Source: Sialis fuliginosa
Taxonomy: Eukaryota > Arthropoda > Insecta > Megaloptera > Sialidae
NCBI GenBank assembly: GCA_961205875.1
Contig: OY540812.1
Span: 11,656,001-11,720,000 of the forward strand
Reading direction: 5' to 3'
Length of the DNA stretch: 64,000 nucleotides
Below the pieces are notes generated by a model. It was not told the DNA's origin. It was given only the letters and a program-made list of their open reading frames with translations, and did not search any database. This document shows, one piece after another, positions 1,118 to 39,936 of this stretch. The stretch's first letter is position 1. Each line of letters opens with the position of its first letter. The position numbers were made by a program, and so were the translations under genes.

Positions 1118-2751
1118 GTTTAAAATAAAATTAAAGAATTTGTCTAACGATATAAAAACGAAAACAAGTATCAGGTAAATAATGTGAGATAGGATATATC
1201 AACTCTGTTATTAATTTTCTAGGTTTTAAACTTGCCTTAATGATCCTGTTATAAAATAAGATTATTTTATAAAATAAACCCTTATTAGCTGTCTTATATA
1301 AACCAATTTGTAGCCCATCATTCATATAAATCAAGTAATCAATTAGAACGTATATTATATTTACATACCAACTCAATAGTCAATTAGCAATTTACATTTG
1401 TCAACAAGCTACCAACTAATTTGATAGTATGAGATTGTTTTATCGGTAACATACGGTCCTGTAACAATGGTAAATCCACGTACAACCTCCCCATCAACAG
1501 AATCGCGTTGGGTAACGACCATAGCCTACTAAATGACGTAGGAAAAGAAACCAATGATGAACGTTGCCATATGCTGTTGAATGGGGACCAAGAAAGCGTG
1601 GCTAAGTGCTTCGCGGTAGAGAATTGTGTTTGGCGGCTCAATCCATTTCGTTTCTAATACCGCTATGAATTATTATATATGTATGTCGGTTTTTATTGTC
1701 CCACGAATAACTTATGACACGAATGGAGGACAATTTAATATTTGGTAAAAAATCGATTAATCATTAATGTGTTTTGATTGCTTTTTTATTTATCATATGC
1801 CTGTCTCTTGAAAAAACGTATTTCCATCACATAAAATAAAAATTTCAATAAAACTATTGGATTATTTTACGGTTAGATAAAAGTATGAAAAACGATGAAA
1901 TGTTAAAATCAAAAATAATAAAAATCAGTGTAAATACAAATATCATAAAACTGAATTTTTTAATATGAAACATTTTTTAAACAATAAATACATCAAATTC
2001 CATGTAAAGAATTATATTACATCCACGCAAAGCATGTATGTAGATGTAGCTATGTAATAAAAAACGTGAATTGTTTCATTTTAAAGATAGAATTAACTGT
2101 GGGTGTTTTTATATGATATAGTAAAAATGATACTACCAGTTCCAAAAATATCTTTCTGTATTAAATATAACGACATCTTCAAAAGTTTGGTTTAAAAATT
2201 AATGAAAATAAAATAATGAAGTTTTAAATTTTACAAAAAAAACCCTCGAGATGTAATCAAACTAAACGGTTTATATCTCTTTCAACGTAATTTAACATTT
2301 CTTCAAAGAATGTAAGTTTAAAATTCATACAACAAGTCCCATAACAATAGTTTACGATTATTTCATAAAACTTCAAACATACTTTGTATATATATTATCA
2401 TCATATTCTCTTTGTATTATATTTTCATATACCATATTTCTACATTATGGTTTGTTTATAGTCAAACATGTTATTTGCTTCTTCTTGCACAAACTAAAAT
2501 CTAAATTTTAACTTGGGTTTAGAGTGCATATACATTTTTAGTTTCTAATAGTTTTGCATTCATGTTTGTTTTAATAAATGTATCTATATAATATGATAGT
2601 TTTTCTAAATCCTTCCTTTCAAAGTTGCAATAGGCTGGTGTCATTTTCTAAATAAATAAAATGAATATATGTACTATATATGTATATATATAATATACAT
2701 ATATAAAAACAAACTTGTTTGTTTAAACGTCAAAATTTATTAAAGAAGAGG

Positions 2752-2788
2752 AAACCGCAAGCTTTCGATTCACAGAATCATCGTCAGG
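2752..2788 (-). ncRNA. Hammerhead-ribozyme-like motif, left hairpin arm
   Basis: This is the mirror copy of the motif in the right arm, read on the minus strand, and is identical because the arms are perfect complements. The two motifs face each other head to head. In a single transcript the long hairpin would compete with folding of either motif. Confidence 0.38.
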
Positions 2789-2885
2789 CTATTAATAAAG
2801 ATTTAAATTTGAGAAAGATGTCGTTATCTCAATAAAATTCATTGAGATAACGACATCTTTCTCAAATTTAAATCTTTATTAATAG

Positions 2886-2922
2886 CCTGACGATGATTCT
2901 GTGAATCGAAAGCTTGCGGTTT
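2886..2922 (+). ncRNA. Hammerhead-ribozyme-like motif, right hairpin arm
   Basis: CTGACGA (2887-2893) fits the hammerhead core CUGANGA. One extra T follows, then GATTC-TGT-GAATC as helix II, then GAAA (2908-2911). TTTATTAA upstream and TTAATAAA downstream (near 2932-2939) could form the outer part of helix I. The helix III/cleavage region (GCTTGCGG) does not give a canonical A15.1-U16.1 pair, so activity is doubtful. Hammerheads of this minimal type are known from Penelope-like retroelements. Confidence 0.4.
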
Positions 2923-4440
2923 CCTCTTCTTTAATAAATTTTGACGTTTAAACAAACAAGTTTGTTTTTATTTTTATTTAACGTCACTACTATCATATTA
3001 TATAATATATATATATATCTATACATCTCACGTTTAAGGCTAATCATATTTTATCTACGCAAAAGCTTTTCATTAGTCGATATCTGTTATCTCTTACTAA
3101 TATCCTAATGAACGGTTTTTAAAATCTTTTGTAAAAGGAACAAAACAAAAACTATATTCTTCTTATTTTACTAAATAAACTTACTTTAACAAAAAAAAAA
3201 TAATTTAAAATTTTTAAAATACATATTAGCATATAACAAAAAAGTTATTAAGGTACGAATAAGAACTTCGTATATTGAAAATGGTGACACATGACCCATG
3301 TGACCCAGTTGTCCCATCAAATTATTTGCCGACGACTGAGATGACACGAGGAATCAACACGATACTTTAACTACATATAGTTAGAAAGATAGAGCAAAAA
3401 ATGTTCGCTGTGTTACTCGAAACGACTAACATTAGCCGTCTAGAATTAAACAATAATAAAACGTACAAACAATGGTGTAGTAAGATGTTTTGCCATTTTA
3501 TGCTAAACAAAGTTGTCATAATATACGAAAAAAAAGATCTACTCACTGCATTATGTTTTTTATCAGTGTTTCTAAGAAAAACATATTATTATTTATTTTA
3601 GTGTTATGGTCTTATTAAAATAACAATATCAAAATATAAGGATATTTATTATATTATTTATTTAAAAAAAAAAACGTAATATATTTATTTCGAATATCGA
3701 AAATACATATTGATAACAAAGAAATGATAAAAATATTCGAGCTAACAATAAGTAATAATCAATTTTATTTACTTATAATTTAATTTCGAATATGTAATTA
3801 TTAAAAAAAAAGACTAATGAAGTATTAAAAAAATAATGACTTTTAAACGTACATACTTTTAGAACTTTCCAGACAATGTCTTTACATATTAATTATCACT
3901 GAATATCTGATTGTAAGTAACGTTTAATCAATACAATAACGCTCAAATATGTATTATTTAGATATTTAATAAGTTGGATATAAGACGCGTGGCTAGACTA
4001 TGAATATAGTAATATAGTTGATTTATTTTTGTGAAGTAAAAGATGGAAGGCCGAATTTAAATCATGGTTTATTTTTATTAAGTTGTTTTTAACATTTTTT
4101 AATAACTAGTCAAAACTTTAATTACAAATTTTTTGAGACCAGCATTTTAAAATGAAACTTTTTATAAATCTCAGATACGAAAGTTTTAGTTTTTGCACTG
4201 AAATATTACAAGAACATAAACTGAATATTTTAGCATAACTTGTCTACATTAATATTTAACTTCGGTATATTTAAGCTCTGAAATATCATTTATTAAATTA
4301 TTGAATGCTTAAAACAACAAATTTGTTAGTTTTTTACAATAAACGAATTGTATTATATTCTAACAATCAATACTATTTTTTGATTTATTTTAAAATCCAT
4401 TTTTATTTGTTTTATTCTTAGTTCATTTAGTATTATTTAG

Positions 4441-39819: not shown

Positions 39820-39936
39820 CTATACTCTATTTCATTTAAGAATGCAGTGGTTGCCGGGGTTTTGACGGTACGAATCGTGCATTTTACCGTCAAAAACTAC
39901 GGCGACCACTGCATTCTTAAATGAAATAGAGTATAG
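39820..39936. repeat. Imperfect hairpin, about 117 bp
   Basis: 39820-39870 pairs with 39885-39936: CTATACTCTATTTCATTTAA and GAATGCAGTGG match their complements exactly, with three or four changes and one single-base indel nearer the loop (GGGGTTTTGACGGTA against TAGTTTTTGACGGTA). The loop contains CGAATCGTGCAT. Looks like a tiny MITE or fold-back. Confidence 0.88.

Follow-up and report, generated by a model that had tools for sequence, protein, structure and literature searches.

The perfect hairpin in the 64,000-nt stretch of Sialis fuliginosa DNA analysed here (the window) is probably a single Penelope-like retrotransposon insertion, complete and very short, a reading assigned a probability of roughly 0.7. 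Its formation is best, and quite probably, read as two-ended target-primed reverse transcription in which both cut strands copied one RNA, and dozens of sister insertions in the same genome suggest from their sequences that the element may write DNA on both strands of a cut site at once. We see no function for the hairpin itself, which looks like a by-product of transposition.

The hairpin and its relatives

Exact reverse-complement comparison of positions 2703-2833 with 2841-2971 gives two arms of 131 nt, perfect throughout and separated by a 7-nt loop (AAAATTC), as an earlier sequence-only reading had described; a looser pairing of the arms at the same hairpin covers 143 nt at 97%. Folded as RNA, positions 2695-3005 reach -211 kcal/mol, compared with a mean of -46.0 (sd 4.5) for shuffled sequences, none of 100 being as low. 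The extent of 2703..2971 given in that reading holds for the perfect arms, but the insertion is larger: the right arm continues through a 30-nt tail to 3001, the left arm extends inward to about 2842, and the whole is bounded by direct repeats of 13 nt that differ at one position (2690-2702 and 3002-3014). This duplication is weak on its own because the flanks are AT-rich. The parts of the insertion are as follows.

2690..2702, no strand: left copy of the target-site duplication, ATAATATACATAT, a 13-nt repeat with one mismatch against 3002-3014
2703..2842, minus strand: left arm, a pLTR end apparently from spliced sense RNA (reference 93-234, intron absent); its outer end is the tail-less start site, where no tail was found
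2761..2788, minus strand: hammerhead-like motif, the left-arm counterpart by sequence match
2788..2789, minus strand: exon-exon junction, the left-arm counterpart
2841..2971, plus strand: right arm, the same pLTR end (reference from 102, intron absent), with a 2-nt junction overlap with the left arm
2885..2886, plus strand: exon-exon junction AATAG/CCTGACG, the 82-nt intron of unspliced relatives being gone
2886..2913, plus strand: hammerhead-like motif CCTGACGATGATTCTGTGAATCGAAAGC, a candidate by sequence, with the letters CTGACGA from 2887
2972..3001, plus strand: tail TTTTATTTAACGTCACTACTATCATATTAT, on the right arm only, with the putative second start site at its far end
3002..3014, no strand: right copy of the target-site duplication, a direct repeat with 2690-2702

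Alignment with the relatives shows the outer ends to correspond to the ends of the element, the inner ends to be apparent 5' truncations, and both arms to lack exactly the intron that relatives keep; on the best reading, the window copy would derive from a spliced leader RNA. A second near-perfect hairpin occurs elsewhere in the window at 39820-39936, with perfect arms of about 32 nt (39820-39851 and 39905-39936) and an inner part that is likewise palindromic (GACGGTA...TACCGTC). Its letters resemble those flanking the Penelope insertion L050, and it therefore looks like a dispersed palindromic repeat.

The genome searched (G000) comprises 392 Mb in 20 contigs, with the window on C4. At least 45 arms, the window's two included, are identical over all 131 nt among the 40 candidates scored of 1,196, and a 33-nt core pattern gives 915 + 926 = 1,841 matches at up to three mismatches, the reversed control giving none. 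The hairpin had been called very young or maintained; the at least 43 further arms identical over 131 nt bear out its youth, but not its maintenance. The same search, which the sequence-only reading had proposed, also upholds its link to Penelope, as the arm recurs in many copies, single and paired, some of them beside GIY-YIG/RT frames. Oriented by the coding sequence, the arm runs from pLTR through the hammerhead-like block to ...GTTTGTTTTTAT, and longer copies continue upstream into a coding frame. L054, the arms of which are alike over 423 nt, contains the GIY-YIG end of the frame, and the upstream part of its plus arm (reference from 34) bears a palindrome, TTAGTAAC...GTTACTAA, in the pLTR of longer copies, which recalls the 5' palindromes of Adineta pLTRs (PMC3846280, in part).

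The full-length copy L070 (G000 C1:22322400-22326300) is a tandem pLTR-ORF-pLTR element with pLTRs in direct order and a 745-aa frame, separated by one stop from a 66-aa frame upstream. Its sub-stretch 1400-1950 matches RVT_1 of Pfam (E 4.1e-12) and its sub-stretch 544-900 matches GIY-YIG (E 4.4e-4; 20.9 bits, just below the Pfam cut-off of 22.6); the whole 745-aa frame has no Pfam match at E 0.01, and a PDB search with it to E 1 yields a single match, to an RNA-directed DNA polymerase (E 0.0008). The window holds no match to the L070 ORF at E 1e-3. As longer copies carry RT and GIY-YIG frames, the arm represents a pLTR, the end of such an element of the Penelope-like kind, and by these predicted domains the element is a canonical endonuclease-bearing (EN+) one, with pLTRs found here in both direct (L070) and inverted (60 pairs) order. 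In that group a single ORF encodes RT and a C-terminal GIY-YIG endonuclease, and a tail of 30-40 bp may be present at one end. At L017 (2790-3110) and L033 (2800-3120), younger insertions directly adjoin older copies of the same family that are 80-88% alike, an adjacency that hints at possible re-targeting of the element's own ends. A long near-perfect hairpin separate from the Penelope arm is present at L003 (2625-2747). MicroRNA identity was rejected for this hairpin and for that of the window, with Rfam scores far under gathering, as expected of any long hairpin.

Each arm carries, in opposed orientation, the CUGANGA-helix II-GAAA letters that the sequence-only reading had noticed, here CTGACGA-TGATTCTGTGAATC-GAAA, on the plus strand from 2887 and on the minus strand at 2781-2787 and on. 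The motif block is, as judged by eye, the best-kept part of old copies. In our own reading, one extra unpaired U lies between A9 and the helix II pairs, and in L070 the frame opened by the ATG of the motif runs for three codons before a stop. The intron ends one base before CCTGACGA, and splicing would thus swap the upstream strand able to form helix I. Rfam scans matched no hammerhead model, which is weak evidence because minimal PLE hammerheads, as described in the available part of PMC6155905, lack helix III; the hammerhead of the green anole element cleaved only with protein present (PMC11167929, in part). The arm motif is accordingly best termed an unproven candidate for a hammerhead ribozyme, with the core letters present.

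Tails, introns and ends of paired arms

In all 60 head-to-head pairs fetched, exactly one outer end bears the tail of about 30 nt, comprising 56 of 56 pairs at first, 28 of which carry it on the left arm, and all 4 pairs of a later test set. The count is limited to pairs in which both outer ends were recognised, a pair being a minus arm followed by a plus arm, and no plus-then-minus order occurs in the fetched loci. Only arms in which the 29-nt end motif is recognisable at up to 5 errors were captured, and L028, the second arm of which has lost its outer end, was thus taken as a single arm; duplicates of an arm with the same ends were counted once (the left arm of L007; L006/L007 are one pair), and two older arms for which the alignment jumped to a younger arm were left out (L017 +3095 and L033 +3102). 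The 135 arms kept divide into 64 ending at the tail site (up to 4 nt off) and 71 at the near site (up to 7 nt off), and the 100 exact tails of an independent coordinate list include only one facing pair within 2.5 kb, that of L070, one of its tails being internal. Arm order in the fetched loci was head-to-head in 56 cases, same-strand in 3 and tail-to-tail in none; for neighbouring arms within 3 kb on C1-C3 the corresponding counts were 29, 2 and 0.

In most of the 23 rows with a single arm a second end cannot be clearly recognised, so that they neither support nor break the one-tail rule. The single-arm, tail-less L070 and L078 open with sequence that matches the inverted tail end exactly, over 43 and 16 nt respectively, and L036 has a weak match of 11 AT-rich nt. 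As L070 starts with this inverted 43-nt stub, made up of the tail and 13 nt more, and has no tail at its other end, the long element obeys the one-tail rule too. The length of an arm is independent of its tail (tail arm longer in 29 and shorter in 21 of the 52 of 56 pairs compared; p 0.22), leaving unsupported a shorter tail arm of the kind that a leading and a trailing polymerase would produce.

A second regularity concerns an intron. Unspliced relatives contain an extra 82-nt stretch, GTATAT...TTTTAG, inserted precisely where AATAG would meet CCTGACG and directly ahead of the hammerhead-like motif. It is absent from both arms in 22 pairs, present in both in 9 and mixed in none (31 of 31 concordant): the first set, among pairs informative on both arms, gave 21 spliced, 7 unspliced and 0 mixed (28 of 28; exact p 2e-7), and later-fetched pairs gave 1, 2 and 0 (3 of 3). 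Exact-match coordinates on C1-C3 gave 18 spliced, 11 unspliced and 0 mixed (p 6e-9), for insertions that partly overlap the first set. Across the genome, at up to three mismatches, the spliced junction pattern has 777 matches, the 5' splice site of the intron 312 and the controls none, the first two being counts of different patterns and not a clean ratio. That the longer form is merely a different subfamily was rejected, since the extra stretch is a GT...AG insert whose absence maps to one exact point. We take it that sense RNA, spliced anew, would be the template of most small insertions. The arms of one insertion also agree in other respects: in 42 of 56 pairs no difference occurs over the locally aligned shared part, some pairs differ at 1 to 4 sites, and all variants examined are common to both arms in L035 (4 of 4) and L061 (3 of 3).

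The third regularity lies at the 5' end. Because L001-L039 were chosen by the spliced 131-nt arm and favour long spliced arms, it was assessed in a core-selected sample of exact-core matches on C1 and the first 19.6 Mb of C2 (34 pairs and 13 single arms; L058/L059, which are the tandem element L070, and L029 were left out of the insertion counts). Among spliced insertions, 16 of 22 have a longest arm that stops within reference 83-104, compared with 3 of 23 unspliced ones (p 7e-5), the remaining 6 of 22 spliced insertions ending outside this interval, and the longest arm reaches above reference 60 in 0 of 22 spliced and 9 of 23 unspliced insertions (p 0.0015), 6 of the latter reaching the ORF. 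Four unspliced insertions end inside the intron, which is impossible for spliced ones; without them the unspliced fractions are 3/19 (p 4e-4) and 9/19. The sequence TCACATG lies at reference 89 and could, at a guess, be an initiator. A recurrent 5-nt microhomology junction, 161/89, found in L002, L010, L022, L032 and L034, explains part of the peak at 89.

The inner junctions of spliced-form pairs overlap by a mean of 2.55 nt (38 of 41 pairs, the other 3 having inserts of 16-32 nt), compared with 0.78 nt for simulated blunt joins, of which 0 of 5000 were as high. Target duplications of 8 nt or more flank 46 of 56 pairs and 8.4% of mismatched flanks; they vary in length and are missing at this size in the other 10 pairs. 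The duplications of 8 to 18 nt, together with the one-sided tail, are the grounds on which a DNA transposon with TA duplication was rejected.

Two-ended priming and its alternatives

These footprints suggest a pathway in which the RT/GIY-YIG protein would cut both strands of an AT-rich target and the two free 3' ends would serve as primers for copying a single RNA, from start sites separated by 30 nt and close to its 5' end. One cDNA would begin at the far site, and so carry the tail, and the other at the near site without it; synthesis of both would proceed in the direction of the RNA 5' end, which in spliced RNA would lie about 130-150 nt from the near site. With the 5' end of spliced RNA so close to the near start, the product would be tiny and resemble a strong-stop product. 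Annealing of the cDNA 3' ends through a microhomology of a few bases, followed by fill-in, might then complete an insertion with its arms head to head, a single tail and a duplicated target site. Longer insertions with coding sequence would come from long, unspliced RNAs. Splicing and the position of the RNA 5' end are inferred from the sequences of the insertions, and service of the same RNA to both strands would be the simplest route to the one-tail and like-intron rules together. In the available account of the green anole element, the purified Penelope protein acts on both strands, which it cuts and extends, two internal starts bound a tail, and in vitro the start site is alike on both strands (PMC11167929), the last of which counts against a scheme of one site per strand. 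The fullest version of two-ended priming, with symmetric priming on one RNA with two fixed starts, a tail arising because two polymerases cannot share one site, cDNA annealing in place of a second-strand step, and strong-stop hairpins from spliced RNA primed near its 5' end, is tentative and falls a little short of even odds.

The alternative that survives best, unlikely as it is, retains synthesis from both ends but supplies it with two separate RNAs held in an asymmetric protein dimer, one subunit using the tail site and the other the near site. One tail per insertion would follow directly and, with like RNAs, so would like intron states; the purified anole protein is indeed a predicted dimer (PMC11167929, in part). 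The scheme needs an added rule, the co-loading of like RNAs, to account for concordant intron states in 31 of 31 pairs and for the variants common to both arms.

Self-priming by snap-back is improbable. Here a single cDNA would fold back at its 3' end and be extended, and the resulting hairpin would be integrated; self-priming on an antisense template is the preferred explanation of Penelope inverted repeats in PMC3846280, which, in the part available, leaves an unspliced sense template open. Mostly identical arms (42/56), the variants common to both in L035 and L061 and the same intron state are all as snap-back predicts, and the junction microhomology would also suit fold-back priming. A snap-back arm, however, ends where the first cDNA began, so that matching ends are expected, yet 60 of 60 pairs are one-tailed; an antisense template, moreover, leaves the precise loss of a GT-AG intron (777 spliced-junction matches at up to three mismatches) unexplained. 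Taken together, the rules indicate a sense, spliced RNA template and argue against simple snap-back and a purely antisense template.

Equally doubtful is the idea that the spliced form is a separate intron-less, short SINE-like element with its own master copy. Such an element would explain the narrow common 5' end, the failure of any spliced insertion to reach the ORF (0/52) and a one-base deletion present in 51 of 52 spliced insertions, although the same deletion occurs in 20 of 25 unspliced ones. Spliced copies span sub-lineages, however: the tail variant of the window occurs in 10 spliced insertions and in one unspliced (L082), the spliced L035 and unspliced L061 have two variants in common, and the copies that are 80-88% alike (L017, L033) also lack the intron. 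Perfect hairpins belong to a known class of assembly or library artefacts, but a false palindrome deserves almost no credence here, as it does not suit the many sites, unequal arms, one-tail rule and target duplications.

Comparison with known systems

With many near-unmutated natural insertions available in a single genome, rules can be derived at the population level, and annotators are cautioned that a perfect hairpin or a solo pLTR pair is not necessarily a foldback transposon. Foldback elements and MITEs have identical terminal inverted repeats and a target duplication of fixed length; the insertions described here resemble them in having inverted repeats inside a target duplication, but bear a tail at one end only, with variable inner ends and duplications of variable length. 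Twin priming of LINEs places an inverted segment upstream of a direct segment without overlap, whereas both arms here cover the same reference stretch. Non-LTR retrozymes form head-to-tail tandem monomers with hammerheads, and neighbouring arms within 3 kb on C1-C3 were same-strand in only 2 cases as against 29 head-to-head. Animal non-LTR retrozymes, for which PLEs are the proposed movers, are small and dispersed and carry a hammerhead-type motif (PMC7761336, in part), a likeness that the present insertions share; unlike the retrozymes of that account, their arms are nearly always head to head and their longer copies enter the PLE's own ORF.

A close published counterpart is the Penelope type of Adineta vaga, in which pLTRs are direct or inverted, head-to-head order is commonest and a 31-bp tail is optional on one inverted pLTR (PMC3846280, in part). 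Given these inverted, one-tailed pLTRs, the new fold-back class offered as an alternative by the sequence-only reading is not needed. The two systems have in common direct and inverted pLTRs, an optional tail, short target duplications and an RT and GIY-YIG ORF, and one A. vaga copy has an intron, within its ORF (PMC3846280). In A. vaga, copies are few and the inverted pLTR is described mainly at the 5' end of long copies, whereas here many solo pairs exist in spliced and unspliced versions. Neither the one-tail rule nor the same-intron-state rule is stated for A. vaga in the available part of that paper, which treats Penelope integration, intron retention and copy inversion as open questions. 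A literature search covering mainly open-access papers returned no one-tail rule, paired splice states or spliced solo hairpins, and the novelty of the three insertion regularities (one tail, like intron state and a narrow spliced 5' stop) is provisional.

The biochemical counterpart is PAc, the Penelope/Poseidon element of the green anole, which likewise has two adjacent internal starts bounding a tail and both strands cut and extended, with the steps after priming left open in the available account (PMC11167929). In PAc the C3 and G8 of the hammerhead precede an ATG, as in the CTGACG-ATG found here. The start sites of PAc lie inside the ORF (PMC11167929), whereas the tail site of L070 is 41 nt upstream of the first ATG of its coding region and the near site 30 nt further upstream. 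The insertions of S. fuliginosa resemble what the two-strand cutting and the two start sites known in vitro would leave behind in vivo.
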